The translations under genes were made by a program, and so were the position numbers. From Marinoscillum furvescens DSM 4134 (GTDB lineage: Bacteria > Bacteroidota > Bacteroidia > Cytophagales > Cyclobacteriaceae): a stretch of 64,000 nucleotides of DNA. Shown here piece after piece: positions 210 through 4,900 of the stretch. The notes under the pieces were generated by a model that was given only the letters and a program-made list of their open reading frames with translations, was not told the origin of the DNA and made no database searches. The first letter of the stretch is position 1. Every line of letters begins with the position of its first letter. The stretch covers positions 1-64,000 of the forward strand of contig NZ_QREG01000004.1 in assembly GCF_003386095.1 (NCBI RefSeq), read 5' to 3'.

Positions 210-240
210 TTTGTACTTTAAAAATTCTGTCCCACCTTTG
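210..240 (+). promoter_or_regulatory. Bacteroidota-type promoter of the sulfite reduction operon
   Basis: TTTG at 210-213 is followed after 19 nt by CACCTTTG at 233-240. This fits the Bacteroidota primary-sigma pattern (TTTG, 19-21 nt, TAnnTTTG) with one mismatch. The predicted start of transcription is near 246-248, about 10 nt upstream of the riboswitch helix. That position supports the whole downstream leader being one transcript. Confidence 0.6.
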
Positions 241-257
241 TGTCATCAATTCAAAGA

Positions 258-382
258 AATTGATTTATACAGAAGCGTGGAGAGACAGGCTCTTTGAAGC
301 GCTAGCAACCTGAAAGCAACGTTTAAGGTGCTAATTCCTGAGTTTTCTGAGCGGTTATCAGAAGACAGAATATGAATTAATT
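258..382 (+). promoter_or_regulatory. SAM-I (S-box) type riboswitch
   Basis: The conserved S-box core is readable: GGAGAGACAGG near 279-289, TGAAGCGCTAGCAACC near 294-310 and AAGGTGCTAATTCC near 325-338. Positions 258-269 can pair over 12 bp (two G-U pairs) with 371-382, closing a P1 helix around this core. SAM-I aptamers bind S-adenosylmethionine and commonly control sulfur-assimilation and methionine genes, which fits the operon downstream. P1 ends only 4 nt before the start codon of the first Cys-rich leader ORF at 387. Ligand-bound P1 could therefore hide that start region; this last point is inference. Confidence 0.85.
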
Positions 383-386
383 AAAG

Positions 387-473
387 ATGAAATTCACAAG
401 TAGAACATTTAGTAATCCCTTAAGAGAATCATTGCATCACATTTCGTGTTTGTGTTGTTGTTGCTGTATGTAA
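387..473 (+). CDS. Cys-rich leader peptide 1 (28 aa)
   Basis: An ATG at 387 opens a 28-codon ORF beginning MKFTSRTFSN and ending HHISCLCCCCCM before TAA at 471-473. Six of the last eight residues are Cys, written with five TGT and one TGC. It is too short and too biased for an enzyme, and it sits in the leader of a sulfite-reductase operon. I read it as a cysteine-sensing leader peptide whose translation slows when Cys-tRNA is scarce. The start lies directly after riboswitch P1. No Shine-Dalgarno is seen, only an A/T-rich stretch, which is usual in Bacteroidota. Translation is inferred, not shown. Confidence 0.7.
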   Translation: MKFTSRTFSNPLRESLHHISCLCCCCCM

Positions 474-522
474 ACCTTCCCCTTTTACAACAGACAGCCC
501 AATACTACGTACAGACAACACA
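451..522 (+). promoter_or_regulatory. Hairpin sequestering the first Cys-codon run
   Basis: TGTGTTGT (451-458) pairs perfectly with ACAACACA (515-522), and CTGTATGTA (464-472) pairs with TACGTACAG (506-514) with one G-U pair. Together these give a nested 17-bp stem with a 5-nt bulge. The 5' strand is the Cys-codon run of leader 1, so a ribosome there would open the stem. The segment 474-525 is C-rich and G-poor, which could also make it a Rho loading region. The base pairing is read from the sequence; the function is inference. Confidence 0.5.
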
Positions 523-538
523 CGAATAACGAGAAGCA

Positions 539-619
539 ATGATATCTTATATACCTGAAATTTACGGACTCAAAAATGCCCACTGCTGCATGTGCTGTGT
601 GTGTTGTTGTATGCTATAG
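539..619 (+). CDS. Cys-rich leader peptide 2 (26 aa)
   Basis: An ATG at 539 opens a 26-codon ORF beginning MISYIPEIYG and ending HCCMCCVCCCML before TAG at 617-619. It has seven Cys in its last eleven residues. It repeats the design of the leader ORF at 387, with short leader, late His, Cys run and Met near the end, though the N-terminal halves differ. It ends 5 nt before the 5' arm of a predicted antiterminator (622-638), the spacing expected for classical attenuation. An antisense ORF can also be drawn here, but it has no neighbours or motifs. Confidence 0.7.
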   Translation: MISYIPEIYGLKNAHCCMCCVCCCML

Positions 620-621
620 CG

Positions 622-688
622 TGCCGGGATTCGTATATCAAAATATTTACAAAACACCATTCATTAAAGATATATACAAGCCCCGGTA
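622..688 (+). promoter_or_regulatory. Predicted antiterminator
   Basis: Positions 622-638 can pair with 672-688, with 15 of 17 positions paired including two G-U pairs; the mismatches are 629/681 and 632/678. The 3' strand overlaps 678-686, the 5' arm of the terminator, so the two structures exclude each other. A ribosome that finishes leader 2 at 617-619 should cover the 5' strand and allow termination. A ribosome stalled on the Cys codons at 584-610 should leave it free. This is my own pairing; no energies were computed. Confidence 0.65.
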
Positions 689-710
689 GACATTCTTCCG
701 GGGCTTTTTT
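678..710 (+). terminator. Leader terminator (attenuator) before sulfite reductase
   Basis: AAGCCCCGG (678-686) pairs perfectly with CCGGGGCTT (698-706) around an 11-nt loop and runs into six T residues (705-710). It lies 19 nt upstream of the sulfite reductase start, so it can only act on this operon's own leader transcript. Confidence 0.85.
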
Positions 711-729
711 GTAAGAATAAACAGTAGCC

Positions 730-2853
730 ATGAGTACAAAAACAATTTCTAAAGAAGCACAAGCAGACATTACGGAGTTGAAGGATAAAATCCAAAGCTT
801 TAAGTTAGGTCAGATTCCTGAAGAGCGGTTCAAAGCTTTTCGTCTTGCCCGTGGAGTATACGGTCAGCGCCAGCAGGGTGTGCAGATGTTTCGCTCCAAG
901 TTGCCATTCGGCAAAATCACACCAGACCAGCTAGAGCGCTTCGCTGATCTGGCAGAGCAGTACACCAATAGCAATCTGCACCTGACCACCAGACAAAATA
1001 TTCAGTTGCACTACGTAAAACTGGACGATTCGCCCATTATCTGGGAGCAGCTGGAAGAAGTAGGGGTGACCAGTAAAGAAGCCTGTGGAAACACCGTAAG
1101 AAACGTCACCGCATCGCCTTATGCAGGCATCGATCCGGAGGAGCCCTTCGATGTGGCTCCTTACGCTTATGCGGTGTTCGAGTATTTTCTTAGAAATCCT
1201 ATCTGTCAGGAGATGGGCCGAAAGGTGAAAATCGCCTTCTCTTCTTCTAAAGCAGATGCTGCTTTTACATACATTCATGACTTTGGTTTTATCCCTAAGA
1301 TTCAAAACGGAGCTTATGGGTTTGAAGTGATTATAGGCGGAGGACTAGGGGCTCAGTCTTTTATGGGACTCAAGGCATACGATTTTCTTCCTCAGGATGA
1401 GCTGATTCCGTTCATCGAAGCAGGCCTGCGTGTGTTTGACCGCTATGGTGAGCGCGAGCGTAGACACAAAGCACGTATGAAATACCTCATAGAGCCTAAA
1501 AAAGGACTCGGTCTCGACGGATTTCTGGCGCTCGTAGAAGAAGAACGTCTGGCACTTAAAAACAAGACTTATAAGATCAATACCAAGAAGGTAATCACCA
1601 AAATACCTGAAGATCAGCCAATGCTTGGGGTAGAAAGTGTGGAAGTGGATGAGGCTTATGATCAATGGTACAAGACCAACGTGTTTGAGCAAAAGCAAGA
1701 AGGTTTCTATGCGATCAAAGTACGTATCCCTCTCGGTGATATCAAATCTCCCAAGGCACGTATACTGGCTGATATCGCAAGAAAGTATGCAGCGGAAGAT
1801 ATGCGTCTCACCCTCAATCAAGGTGTGTTGCTGAAGTTTGTACGAGCAGAAAACATCCCTGCTGTGTACAATGAGCTCAAAAAGTTGGGCTTTGGAGAAG
1901 CCGGCTTTGATACATTGGCAGATGTGACGGCCTGCCCAGGTACTGATACATGTAACCTCGGTGTGACCAACAGTACTGCACTTGCACTAGAGCTGGAAAA
2001 ATTGATCAAAAATGAATTTCCACACCTTGTGGATGAAACGCTGATCAAAATCAAAATCAGTGGGTGTATGAACTCCTGTGGCCAGCACATGGTAGGGAAT
2101 ATCGGTTTTCACGGAAGTAGTATCAAAAATGGAGATAAAATCGCACCTGCTATGCAGGTAGTGATCGGTGGGGGTGTAGATCCTGATGGTAAGGGCTACA
2201 TCGCCGAAAAAGTGGTGAAAATTCCGACCAAGCGAATCCCCGAAGCAGTTACTGTTCTGCTGAATGATTTTGAAGAGAAAGCTACTGACGAAGAGTATTT
2301 TAACGCCTATTTCCGAAGACAAGGCAAGCGCTATTTCTACGACTTGCTCAAGCATCTTGCGGATGTGAAAACGCTGGCTGATGAAGACTATCAGGACTGG
2401 GGTAAAGCAGATGACTTTGTGCCGGAAATTGGTGTGGGGGAATGTGCCGGTGTGATGATGGATCTGGTAGGTACCATCATTAATGATGCTGCCGAGCGTC
2501 TGGAAAAAGGTAAGGCCGCATACGGTGAAGGCAAATGGGCAGATGCGATCTACTATGCATACAATACGCTGGTGATCGGAGCTAAAGCCATACTTCTCAG
2601 CAAAGATGTTCAGTGCAACACACATCAGGGCATTATTGCTGATTTCCAGAAAAAGGTAGTAGAAACTGGTGATCTGGAGCTTTCTGAAGGCACTTTCCAG
2701 GATCTGGTACTACAGATCAATAAAAACGAACCGAGTGAAGCCTTTGCGTCAGCGTATCTGGCTCAAGCCGATGCTTTCTTTGGTCAGGTGCAAGCCCTTA
2801 GAAACAATGAAGCTGGCAAGAAGCTGGTAGTCAATGAATTTTATAAAGCCTAA
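730..2853 (+). CDS. Sulfite/nitrite reductase hemoprotein with C-terminal HEPN-like domain
   Basis: A 707-aa siroheme/4Fe-4S reductase of the assimilatory sulfite/nitrite reductase family, reducing sulfite to sulfide by six electrons in the cytosol. It has the duplicated ferredoxin-like and siroheme-binding halves; the cluster cysteines are Cys402 and Cys408 (CPGTDTC) and Cys446 and Cys450 (CMNSC). Residues from about 575 to 707 go beyond a standard hemoprotein and form an all-helical region (AAERLEKGKAAYGEGKWADA and onward) resembling the HEPN tail seen in Bacteroidota versions. It is first in an operon with siroheme synthesis genes and APS reductase, which favours sulfite over nitrite as substrate. 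The role of the HEPN-like tail is unknown. Confidence 0.9.
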   Translation: MSTKTISKEAQADITELKDKIQSFKLGQIPEERFKAFRLARGVYGQRQQGVQMFRSKLPFGKITPDQLERFADLAEQYTNSNLHLTTRQNIQLHYVKLDDSPIIWEQLEEVGVTSKEACGNTVRNVTASPYAGIDPEEPFDVAPYAYAVFEYFLRNPICQEMGRKVKIAFSSSKADAAFTYIHDFGFIPKIQNGAYGFEVIIGGGLGAQSFMGLKAYDFLPQDELIPFIEAGLRVFDRYGERERRHKARMKYLIEPKKGLGLDGFLALVEEERLALKNKTYKINTKKVITKIPEDQPMLGVESVEVDEAYDQWYKTNVFEQKQEGFYAIKVRIPLGDIKSPKARILADIARKYAAEDMRLTLNQGVLLKFVRAENIPAVYNELKKLGFGEAGFDTLADVTACPGTDTCNLGVTNSTALALELEKLIKNEFPHLVDETLIKIKISGCMNSCGQHMVGNIGFHGSSIKNGDKIAPAMQVVIGGGVDPDGKGYIAEKVVKIPTKRIPEAVTVLLNDFEEKATDEEYFNAYFRRQGKRYFYDLLKHLADVKTLADEDYQDWGKADDFVPEIGVGECAGVMMDLVGTIINDAAERLEKGKAAYGEGKWADAIYYAYNTLVIGAKAILLSKDVQCNTHQGIIADFQKKVVETGDLELSEGTFQDLVLQINKNEPSEAFASAYLAQADAFFGQVQALRNNEAGKKLVVNEFYKA

Positions 2854-2857
2854 ACTC

Positions 2858-3625
2858 ATGAGTAAGACTCCTAAACTTACGCTGGTAGGTGCAGGCCCAG
2901 GTGATCCAGAGCTGATCACACTGAAAGGTCTAAAAGCGCTGCAAGCTGCCGATGTGGTGCTATATGATGCCTTGGTGGACCCAGAGTTGCTCACCTATGC
3001 GCCGGATGCGCTGCATATTCCGGTAGGCAAGCGTGCGGGGAAGTCTAGCGTGTCGCAAGACACCATCAACAGCCTGATCGTGCAATATGCCAAGGAGCAT
3101 GGGCATGTGGTACGACTCAAAGGCGGAGACCCGTTTGTGTTTGGTAGAGGCTTTGAAGAAAAAGCCTTTGCTGAGCAGCATGGACTGGAAGTAGATGTAG
3201 TAGTAGGGGTGAGCAGTGTGATGCTTCCCGGTTACTTTGGCATACCGTTGACATGCAGAGGTATCAACCAAAGTTTTACCGTAGTGACAGCTACTACCCG
3301 CGAAGGCAAACTCAGTGATGAAGTGCTCAATGCAGCAGCATATGCTCCCACTACACTGTTTTTTATGGGGCTGGGAAAGCTGGATATGATAGCGGAGGCT
3401 TACGTGCAAAACGGTCGTGGAGAACTTCCTGTGGCTATTGTAAGCAAAGGCTCTCATAAAGATGGGGAAGTGATTAAAGGTACGGCCAACACCATAGCAG
3501 AAGTAGCTGCCAAAAAGCAGCCTGAAGCACCAGCTTTGCTCGTATTCGGTGAAGGTGCCGCGCTGGCATCTAATGAGCAGCAGGTCAATCAATGGTGGGA
3601 AACTGTAAAAACTGAAGTGGCATGA
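2858..3625 (+). CDS. cobA: Uroporphyrinogen-III C-methyltransferase
   Basis: Transfers two methyl groups from SAM to uroporphyrinogen III to make precorrin-2, the first committed step to siroheme, the cofactor of the reductase just upstream. The family signature VGAGPGDPELITLKG is at the N-terminus, followed by VRLKGGDPFVFGRG. I chose the ATG at 2858 (MSKTPKLTL, 255 aa), 4 nt after the previous stop; an in-frame ATG at 2834 would add eight residues and overlap the upstream gene. The product is the stand-alone type, without the dehydrogenase half of CysG, which is encoded by the next gene. Confidence 0.93.
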   Translation: MSKTPKLTLVGAGPGDPELITLKGLKALQAADVVLYDALVDPELLTYAPDALHIPVGKRAGKSSVSQDTINSLIVQYAKEHGHVVRLKGGDPFVFGRGFEEKAFAEQHGLEVDVVVGVSSVMLPGYFGIPLTCRGINQSFTVVTATTREGKLSDEVLNAAAYAPTTLFFMGLGKLDMIAEAYVQNGRGELPVAIVSKGSHKDGEVIKGTANTIAEVAAKKQPEAPALLVFGEGAALASNEQQVNQWWETVKTEVA

Positions 3626-4260
3626 GTGAAGCAATCAAAACGGATGGAAATGTGCTTTTTCCGGTATTTCTAAAGCTCAACCAACTACAAACTGTAGTAG
3701 TAGGTGGAGGAAATGTAGGGTTGGAAAAAGTGGAGGCACTGTTGAAAAATGATCCCAATGCCCGTATCCGTGTGATTGCTCCTGAAATAAAAACCGAGCT
3801 GCGAGCAATTGCAGCTCAGTCTGAATATATAGAAATCGTAGAGCGCAAGGTGAGGGGTAGAGATCTCCGCAAAGCAGACCTTTTGATTCTGGCTACTGAT
3901 AATTACTCGCTCCATGAGCGACTTAAGCAAAAGGCTAAGCGACGCAGACTGCTCACTAACGTGGCAGATACTCCGAACCTTTGCGATTTCTATTTGGGAT
4001 CTACCGTTAAAAAAGGTGACCTCAAAATTGGGATCAGCACCAATGGTAAATCACCAACGTTTGCCAAGCGCTTCCGGCAGACATTAGAAGAAATTTTACC
4101 AGAAAGCACCCCTGAGCTACTTAATCAGCTCAAAACCATTCGCGACCGACTGAAGGGAGATTTTCAGTACAAAGTGGATAAGCTGAATGAAATCACTTCG
4201 GTGATGGTAAACAACGAAAACAACAAAGACGAACATGGAGAGCGAATTGAGACTCACTGA
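3622..4260 (+). CDS. Precorrin-2 dehydrogenase / sirohydrochlorin ferrochelatase-like
   Basis: A 212-aa protein of the Met8/CysG N-terminal type. It oxidises precorrin-2 to sirohydrochlorin with NAD and may insert iron to give siroheme. The Rossmann loop VVVGGGNVGLEKVEALL is near residues 22-38 and the family motif ISTNGKSPTFAKRFR lies in the second half. The start overlaps the methyltransferase stop by 4 nt (ATGA), indicating translational coupling. Whether it also chelates iron cannot be told from sequence alone, but no other ferrochelatase is in the operon. Confidence 0.88.
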   Translation: MSEAIKTDGNVLFPVFLKLNQLQTVVVGGGNVGLEKVEALLKNDPNARIRVIAPEIKTELRAIAAQSEYIEIVERKVRGRDLRKADLLILATDNYSLHERLKQKAKRRRLLTNVADTPNLCDFYLGSTVKKGDLKIGISTNGKSPTFAKRFRQTLEEILPESTPELLNQLKTIRDRLKGDFQYKVDKLNEITSVMVNNENNKDEHGERIETH

Positions 4261-4900
4261 ACTCAACAAGCGATACAAGAACCTGACCTATCTGGATCGG
4301 ATCAAAATGCTGTTTGGGGAGTTTGATGCAGACAAGATTTTGGTCACTACCTCTTTTGGTAGCACTTCTGTAGTGCTGCTCCACATGATCAATAAGGTGG
4401 CTCCAGACCACCCTATCCATCTGATCAATACAGGGTACCTTTTTAAAGAAACTCATGCTTACAAACAGGAGCTTCGAGACGAATGGGGACTCAATGTAGT
4501 GGATGTTCACCCTCGGGAGCGATCTCACGACTTTTCGCGTAAGCACAAGGTTTGGAACGACAACCCGGACTTTTGTTGCTTTATCAACAAGGTAGAACCG
4601 ATGATGGAGCTAAAGCGGGGCAAAGACGTTTGGGTATCTGGATTGCTGGGCTTCCAAAACGCAAACCGCGCTAACAAGCAGATTTTTGAACACCATCAGG
4701 GGCTCAATAAGTTTCATCCGCTGATAGACATGAATCAGGAGGACCTGAATCTTTACCGCACGATCTATGAGCTGCCCACACACCCGCTCATGTACGAGGG
4801 CTATGGCTCCATAGGCTGTGTGCAGTGCACCAAAAAAGGTGAAGGGCGTGAAGGTCGCTGGGAAGGCCGTGAAAAAACAGAGTGCGGATTGCATCTGTAA
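4235..4900 (+). CDS. cysH: APS/PAPS reductase, 4Fe-4S type
   Basis: A 221-aa thioredoxin-dependent reductase that turns activated sulfate into sulfite for the reductase at the head of the operon. It carries the cluster-binding cysteines of the APS-reductase type: Cys114-Cys115 (DFCCFINK) and Cys195/Cys198 (CVQC), plus catalytic Cys217 in ECGLH at the C-terminus. The iron-sulfur motif favours APS over PAPS as substrate. The start overlaps the previous gene by 26 nt. ATP sulfurylase genes (cysDN) are not in the window. It should be under the same SAM and Cys leader control as the genes before it. Confidence 0.92.
   Translation: MESELRLTELNKRYKNLTYLDRIKMLFGEFDADKILVTTSFGSTSVVLLHMINKVAPDHPIHLINTGYLFKETHAYKQELRDEWGLNVVDVHPRERSHDFSRKHKVWNDNPDFCCFINKVEPMMELKRGKDVWVSGLLGFQNANRANKQIFEHHQGLNKFHPLIDMNQEDLNLYRTIYELPTHPLMYEGYGSIGCVQCTKKGEGREGRWEGREKTECGLHL

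Follow-up and report, generated by a model that had tools for sequence, protein, structure and literature searches.

We report on the leader of a gene of Marinoscillum furvescens DSM 4134 that probably encodes an assimilatory sulfite reductase. The gene lies near the start of contig NZ_QREG01000004.1, of which positions 1 to 64,000 of the forward strand, a stretch of 64,000 nucleotides (nt) hereafter termed the window, were analyzed. From 5' to 3', the leader holds an S-adenosylmethionine (SAM) riboswitch aptamer of the SAM-I class, two short open reading frames (ORFs) with runs of cysteine codons (Cys runs), and an intrinsic terminator with a competing antiterminator (Table 1). The start codon of the first ORF stands directly behind the aptamer, and this pairing recurs in many genera. 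The anatomy of the leader is near certain, and its parts, their recurrence and their spacing are established from the sequences; upon them we build a model in which SAM and cysteine tRNA (Cys-tRNA) would be sensed in series by two joined modules.

A preliminary description of the window had read in this leader a promoter, a SAM-I aptamer, two Cys-run leaders and an attenuator ahead of siroheme and sulfite-reduction genes. The covariance-model check it called for bore out the aptamer: an Rfam scan of the 64-kb window matched RF00162 at 262-378 with 71.2 bits (gathering score 44.4, E = 1.2e-14, model positions 1-108), and RF00162 was the sole family above its gathering score, with no second aptamer or T-box in the leader. 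By eye, the closing helix P1 comprises 12 bp (258-269 with 371-382) and is followed after 4 nt by the ATG at 387, as had been described, a layout in which the riboswitch P1 overlaps the initiation region of an upstream ORF (uORF). Both Cys-run ORFs are indeed open. When 379-729 was shuffled 5000 times with dinucleotide frequencies preserved, an ORF starting with ATG and containing five or more Cys in eight codons arose in two of the shuffles, and a non-overlapping pair of such ORFs in none. The terminator and its competitor were likewise recovered, the antiterminator duplex scoring -17.8 against a shuffle mean of -9.5 (z -3.39; 0/100 shuffles). By eye, no intrinsic terminator belonging to leader 1 is found in 474-538, and leader 1 is therefore not classed as a classical attenuator.

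The promoter stands as plausible. Its downstream box, CACCTTTG, matches five of the six fixed letters of the consensus TAnnTTTG quoted in PMC7366714, a level that 55% of 550 shuffled regions reach or exceed, so that the box is weak taken alone. Judging from this promoter-like site, the RNA would start near 245.

Table 1. Features of the reductase leader and the genes that follow it, in window coordinates
Feature	Position	Strand	Basis or remark
Leader: SAM-I aptamer, two Cys-run ORFs, antiterminator/terminator, ahead of the reductase	210-729	+	5' to 3' order in the window
Promoter-like site, Bacteroidota type: TTTG (210-213), 19 nt, CACCTTTG (233-240)	210-240	+	
P0, candidate SAM-free alternative: possible pairing of 245-251 with the outer part of the P1 5' strand (258-264)	245-264	+	
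SAM-I (S-box) aptamer with extended P1	258-382	+	Rfam match 262-378; P1 extension by eye
Leader peptide 1, 28 aa, MKFTSRTFSNPLRESLHHISCLCCCCCM; Cys codons within 447-467, at ORF end	387-473	+	ORF; SAM-module type
Long hairpin: leader 1 end with Cys codons (5' arm), spacer and leader 2 start codon (3' arm)	421-549	+	
Leader peptide 2, 26 aa, MISYIPEIYGLKNAHCCMCCVCCCML; Cys codons within 584-610	539-619	+	ORF; leader of the reductase's own attenuator
Antiterminator: 622-638 with 672-688, the latter holding the terminator 5' arm	622-688	+	
Intrinsic terminator with T run	678-710	+	Hairpin 678-706, -18.9 kcal/mol
NIR_SIR reductase	730-2853	+	Pfam domains and neighboring genes
Uroporphyrinogen-III C-methyltransferase	2834-3625	+	Gene after the reductase
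Siroheme synthase N-domain protein	3622-4260	+	Downstream of the methyltransferase
PAPS/APS reductase (cysH)	4235-4900	+	Last of the genes listed in 2834-4900

The assignment of the downstream genes to siroheme synthesis and sulfite reduction agrees with Pfam domains and gene neighborhood, on which we base the probable identity of the reductase. The reductase itself falls below every NCBIfam equivalog cut-off, the best being the NirA family with 259 bits against a cut-off of 523. Some 165 of its residues (window 2353-2853) extend past the NirA-family model match (46-541), and no further Pfam family was found there.

Recurrence of SAM-I aptamers beside cysteine leaders

The census covered all 110 SAM-I matches in 40 genomes, one per genus, chosen by hand from 196 genomes of the family. 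A Cys run was defined as at least three Cys in six codons, with ATG, GTG or TTG starts, a criterion that misses weak leaders (e.g. L038/G061) and counts a few chance matches (e.g. L098, L175). Downstream genes were assigned to the metY/metZ class by blastp (E ≤ 1e-10) to one MetZ, so the class pools MetY and MetZ. A Cys-run ORF starts beside 44 of the 110 aptamers of these 40 genera: 36 of 56 before metY/metZ, 6 of 16 before unclassified genes, 2 of 3 before reductases and none of 35 before metH. The metH aptamers are a natural control, belonging to the same genomes and the same aptamer family without the leader. In 23 of the 44 loci, among them 20 of the 36 metY/metZ loci, the first start codon follows the Rfam match at a distance of 8-10 nt, the full range being -10 to +15; counting instead the in-frame ATG nearest +8, which favors that value, places 24 of the 36 at 8-10. 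In correction of the preliminary description, this is not an isolated odd locus: the module is most often placed ahead of metY/metZ, and leader 2 is an attenuator that belongs to the reductase itself. A SAM-I/Cys-leader fusion peculiar to the window's genus is likewise ruled out, the pairing being common before metY/metZ. For the phylum at large, 80 genomes were drawn, and none of their 30 top-scoring SAM-I loci, a biased sample, showed the pairing.

The space 5' of the aptamer also distinguishes these loci. The P0 pairing is visible by eye in all six leaders of the genus, and P0 stems of 6 bp or more, such as that between AAGTCAATTAC and GTAATTGATTT, can form in 28 of 44 SAM-I loci with Cys leaders vs 4 of 35 metH loci. 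The P0 regions of the former are richer in A and T, so that their shuffles likewise yield longer stems (mean 7.1 bp observed vs 5.5 shuffled, compared with 4.3 vs 4.5 for metH); per locus, p ≤ 0.05 is reached in 15 of 44 and 0 of 35, respectively, with intermediate values in loci devoid of Cys leaders (metY/metZ 1/20, unclassified 2/10). A perfect TAnnTTTG box ends 16-43 nt 5' of the aptamer in 29 of the 30 box-bearing loci with Cys leaders and 3-6 nt 5' of it in 16 of the 17 box-bearing metH loci, leaving space for P0 in the former only.

Behind the metY/metZ leaders, a terminator was detected in 1 of 35 loci vs 3 of 105 shuffles. A sequestered metY/metZ start was considered and found no support: RNAalifold returned 0.0 over 29 loci, that is, no common fold, and the starts are mostly unpaired, with a mean fold z of -0.96 for the start region (6/29 below -1.64). 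Other SAM-I aptamers in the data, devoid of a Cys leader, are followed by an intrinsic terminator of -14.1 to -18.1 kcal/mol (L188, L189, L190, L198, L210, L248), for example before homoserine acyltransferase-like and homoserine dehydrogenase-like proteins (names assigned by eye), so that other expression platforms coexist in the same family.

Within the genus, the aptamer and two Cys-run leaders precede the reductase in all six genomes, the window's own included, with aptamer scores of 69.4-78.9 bits. In each of them the first AUG lies a few nt past the P1 strand TATGAATTAA, and the leader 1 peptides diverge outside the Cys run, except in the close pair G133/G180. The terminator was scored in five members, and the sixth, G007, shows one by eye. 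Marinoscillum pacificum (L004) has the same leader, with coordinates and leader equal to those of G133. The same leader, before a reductase 81% identical, also occurs in a metagenome-assembled genome titled 'Rickettsiales bacterium' (L005, PBTY01000042.1); its place is that of G180 of the window's genus, and the title is probably a mislabel.

Beyond the genus, G059 carries the same stack of aptamer and two leaders before the reductase, and G042 an aptamer and one leader before the reductase, devoid of a terminator by the test applied to the other leaders. The order in G060 and G072 is aptamer, leader 1, metZ, leader 2, reductase. The closest metZ of all six genus genomes is sited elsewhere and coincides with none of the SAM-I loci detected; in four genomes the 400 nt upstream of this metZ hold no Cys-run ORF, and in the other two they hold a CCC ORF at a distance of over 330 nt, apparently unrelated. 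Since metZ separates the modules in relatives and has another location in the genus, the stack looks as if the departure of metZ had joined two modules. In the window's own genome, a metY/metZ-type gene is preceded by a SAM-I aptamer (L002, G000:C7:164351-164454) and then by a short ORF whose Cys cluster is less pronounced, MTSNNSLFALQSVSGFFTKSPVSHKYSSYGMYCCMCLLR, translated by eye.

Seven genera (G001/G085, G018, G026, G031, G034, G039, G047/G169) have a Cys leader neither at metY/metZ nor at the reductase, as if the cysteine response had been lost there as a whole; G047 retains a weak Cys leader before an unclassified gene.

The reductase attenuator and two kinds of leader

For the reductase leaders, the best 80 of 585 confirmed loci were retained. 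The family search matched 143 of 196 genomes, from which 29 loci and 60 fetched regions were examined, about one per genus. Eight of the 29 loci lacked the motif and were omitted (L087, L092, L104, L105, L107, L109, L112, L113), which drops the genus member G007 from the terminator and antiterminator counts. The upstream regions numbered 162 (159 with at least 250 nt; 144 distinct), and distances for L085-L113 were counted from the motif inside the gene, not from the gene start. In this leader search, which the preliminary description had suggested, a Cys-run leader was present in 94 of the 162 regions, and a terminator accompanied 89 of the 94 vs 4 of 470 shuffles (82 of the 86 distinct leaders).

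The position of the Cys run differs between the two sets. When both sets are measured alike, 40 of 44 SAM-type leaders have a run that ends no more than two codons from the stop, vs 2 of 94 reductase leaders, the two being the window's leader 2 and the SAM-type leader of G042, which belongs to both sets. If the final Cys of each peptide is taken instead, the counts become 41 of 44 vs 9 of 94; an earlier comparison, 41 of 44 vs 2 of 94, had used different run-to-stop measures in the two sets. This contrast separates two kinds of leader. Leader 1 of the window is SAM-type, and leader 2 is of the reductase type by its terminator and place, if an atypical one, its Cys run being unusually close to its end.

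Leader 2 has seven Cys within nine codons, and thus the run of pathway amino-acid codons found in attenuators. In a ribosome model evaluated at the decision point, when the polymerase has not yet passed the 3' arm of the terminator, the antiterminator of the window reaches 0.78 with a ribosome on the Cys codons and 0.07 with a ribosome at the stop codon. G133, G180 and G007 give modelled values of 0.73-0.76 with the ribosome on the first Cys codon, 0.46-0.50 with it on the last and 0.05-0.19 with it at the stop, and in five of the six genus members the antiterminator is lower for a ribosome at the stop codon than for one on the first Cys codon. On this modelling, leader 2 is a conventional ribosome-mediated cysteine transcription attenuator with a putative Cys-tRNA response.

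Two non-overlapping Cys-run leaders within 600 nt occur in 25 of the 162 reductase regions, 18 of them outside the window's genus and many in Saprospiraceae (L021-L024, L026, L029, L036, L037, L043, L046, L048, L050-L052, L058, L062, L071, L178). An Rfam scan of all of these except L178 found no SAM aptamer. A SAM aptamer before every tandem Cys leader is rejected, 20 reductase loci, chiefly of Saprospiraceae, having no SAM match in Rfam. Nine reductase leaders (L135, L138, L139, L142, L143, L144, L146, L165, L187) have a peptide core in common in which Trp is interspersed with Cys, for instance RCACWFWCC, RACWFWCC, RCACWHWCC or RCACWYWCC. Unlike other leaders, these keep the core as a peptide, which suggests a nascent-chain effect or common descent.

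A proposed two-input leader in series and its alternatives

We propose that the two leaders act in series. With SAM, P1 would close, and its 3' strand, which forms the initiation region of leader 1, would leave that leader untranslated; when SAM is absent, the 5' strand of P1 would enter the P0 hairpin and leader 1 would be open, so that P0 and P1 would constitute a switch on the 5' side. If Cys-tRNA were short, a ribosome would stall on the terminal Cys run of leader 1 and, held at the end of the ORF, would shield the RNA behind it from termination in the manner of tnaC or mgtL, probably against Rho. In tnaC the stall codons stand at the very end of the leader ORF, as do the Cys runs in 40 of the 44 SAM-type leaders. 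In the window's genus, the stall on leader 1 would also open the hairpin over the start of leader 2. A stall on leader 2 would then leave 622-638 free to form the antiterminator, and a ribosome reaching the stop of leader 2 would cover 622-638 and let the terminator form. On balance, the reductase, siroheme and cysH genes would be on when SAM and Cys-tRNA are both low. As to history, the module of SAM-I aptamer and leader 1, found elsewhere before metY/metZ, would have come to stand directly before the reductase's own attenuator. The complete mechanism, for which we infer SAM binding, translation, the signs of both responses, a role for Rho and this history, we consider somewhat probable. The more general claim describes a recurrent module of Cytophagales-like Bacteroidota in which SAM-I gates the start of a Cys-tRNA leader ('SAM low and Cys low') through a P0/P1 switch, with a stacked relay in the genus that controls the start of the second leader; we regard it as evenly balanced.

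The relay draws on the hairpin that joins the two leaders, whose fold z is -5.0 in the window and -3.6, -4.2, -4.2, -2.6 and -1.3 in the other genus members, that is, strong in five of the six (z -5.0 to -2.6). A modelled stall at the first Cys codon of leader 1 frees the 15 nt before the second AUG, from 0.14 to 0.44 in the window and from 0.34 to 0.87 in G133. The hairpin may represent a local refinement, since G059 lacks it and metY/metZ loci do not in general show pairing of this kind. For the OFF step, Rho is a natural candidate, since the Cys run closes leader 1, SAM-type leaders have no terminators and a rho gene is present in the genome; we propose this tentatively.

Several observations weigh against the mechanism. 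In the ribosome model, G088 shows no cysteine response and G161 responds only to a stall on the first Cys codon. Folding of the full-length RNA always favors the terminator once its 3' arm exists, and the choice must therefore be kinetic. Over 89 reductase leaders, the antiterminator is modest (mean z -1.76; 41/89 below -1.64). A ribosome-free leader 2 defaults to the antiterminator at the decision point in all six genus members (0.49-0.77), which means that hiding the leaders alone would turn the genes on and that an additional OFF step is required if SAM is to repress them. In G088 the coupling hairpin is weak (z -1.3), and in G059 it is absent (z -0.16); treated as a plain duplex, it is clearly above shuffles only in G000 (z -4.6) and G007 (z -2.9), with values of -0.6 to -1.5 in the remaining members. 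Pairing of the leader 1 Cys run with the next 60 nt found no support as a general mechanism (mean z -0.28; 1/44 below -1.64), and no consensus fold of the leader 1/leader 2 region was obtained over seven sequences. A Rho site is not supported by composition, the ratio of C over G behind SAM-type leaders (1.46) showing no excess or enrichment over the metH control (1.67), and the C-rich spacers of the genus (3.2) could equally come from pairing with Cys codons. Finally, the set-back promoter box is also present in nine of ten unclassified loci devoid of a Cys leader, so that it tracks non-metH aptamers and not the Cys leader.

The nested logic of the preliminary description, in which SAM hides the start of the first leader and cysteine sets the position of the ribosome, thus stands in part. 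The hiding of leader 1 by SAM has comparative support, in the census and throughout the genus, and the full account is not supported, since folding of an untranslated leader 2 favors the antiterminator.

An unlikely alternative is that only leader 2 and the terminator act, the aptamer and leader 1 being a remnant of the metZ control region, with little or no effect since metZ departed from the operon. Such a remnant would fit the position of metZ, which separates the two modules in relatives and is located apart from them in the genus, and leader 2 with its terminator is already a complete attenuator. Yet the aptamer, the spacing of P1 and AUG and the Cys run of leader 1 are kept in six of six genomes although most of leader 1 has changed, and the aptamer adjoins the reductase in G059 and G042 too.

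Equally improbable, in our judgment, is termination-reinitiation, in which completion of leader 1 would feed the next ORF, a cysteine shortage at leader 1 would depress whatever lies behind it, and the genes would be on when SAM is low and cysteine sufficient, a behavior that would suit metY/metZ. Such reinitiation has been published for the riboswitch-controlled uORF of ppe2 (PMC11260477), although the ppe2 ORFs overlap, unlike those considered here. The Cys run at the end of leader 1, the lack of a terminator at metY/metZ and the mostly unpaired gene starts would agree with it, but the distances are long for reinitiation: the leader stop and the start that follows are 45-145 nt apart in 25 of the 36 metY/metZ loci and farther apart in 11, and in the genus 46-65 nt separate the stop of leader 1 from leader 2.

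Least likely is a relay that dispenses with Rho, in which SAM would close leader 1, the 421-549 hairpin would close leader 2 and the antiterminator would form, so that only SAM-poor, cysteine-replete cells would terminate: the structure modelled at the decision point for RNA free of ribosomes and the hairpin over the start of leader 2 speak for it, but the hairpin is not general, and read-through at high SAM has the wrong sign for a pathway ending in SAM, SAM-I riboswitches being OFF switches.

Relation to known systems

Riboswitches and amino-acid attenuators are usually seen as alternatives; in the arrangement described here, a metabolite aptamer occupies the start of an amino-acid sensor, and many genera have this arrangement, with a preferred spacing and before genes of one pathway. 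If the two-input mechanism is true, sulfur assimilation would have a naturally occurring logic gate for its two end products that consists solely of RNA and ribosomes, and it suggests how such gates may be built, from two ready modules joined when an intervening gene left. Attenuation in Bacteroidota is little studied, and the reductase attenuators, nearly all of which carry a terminator, are a large set in their own right. A flavobacterial transcriptome study mentions leader-peptide attenuation before amino-acid operons in general terms (PMC9723704). The open full-text literature, outside which most subscription journals and all preprints lie, yielded no recognizable description of a SAM riboswitch joined to a Cys leader; riboswitch-controlled uORFs and cysteine attenuators are each known, and the order of SAM-I aptamer and Cys leader was not found described there.

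Among SAM riboswitches, the 3' side of the SAM-I P1 has been described at a ribosome binding site (PMC2258182), and a SAM-II switch of metA acts on a distant start (PMC9373788). The window resembles the former in that the 3' strand of P1 of RF00162 lies at a translation start, and differs in that the start belongs to a Cys-run leader and not to the enzyme gene. Closest in plan is ppe2 of Mycobacterium tuberculosis, where the first target of a B12 riboswitch is a short uORF, itself translated and in control of the gene behind it (PMC11260477); in the accessible part of that source, the uORF is not described as an amino-acid-run sensor, while that of the window is a Cys run found in many genera and followed by a second leader and a terminator.

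Leaders with Cys codons have been reported before the cys and cbs operons of Actinobacteria (PMC1262725), before cysS of Rhodobacterales (uORFC-8-2; PMC8632094) and as mycobacterial polycysteine short ORFs (Canestrari 2020, via PMC13236596). Like those of the window, they are short Cys ORFs before sulfur or cysteine genes, for which attenuation has been proposed or, according to a title, shown; unlike them, they belong to other phyla, and the available portions of these sources mention neither an aptamer in front nor a second leader. Leaders that integrate two signals are known from Salmonella, where mgtCBR has tandem attenuators with two short ORFs and two signals acting independently and mgtA combines a Mg-sensing riboswitch with a proline-codon ORF, and from Bacillus clausii, where metE carries SAM and B12 riboswitches, two aptamers, in tandem (PMC3641672). 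The reductase leader resembles these systems in reading two signals within one leader and, as far as that source describes them, differs from them in that its aptamer is placed on the amino-acid sensor's own start.

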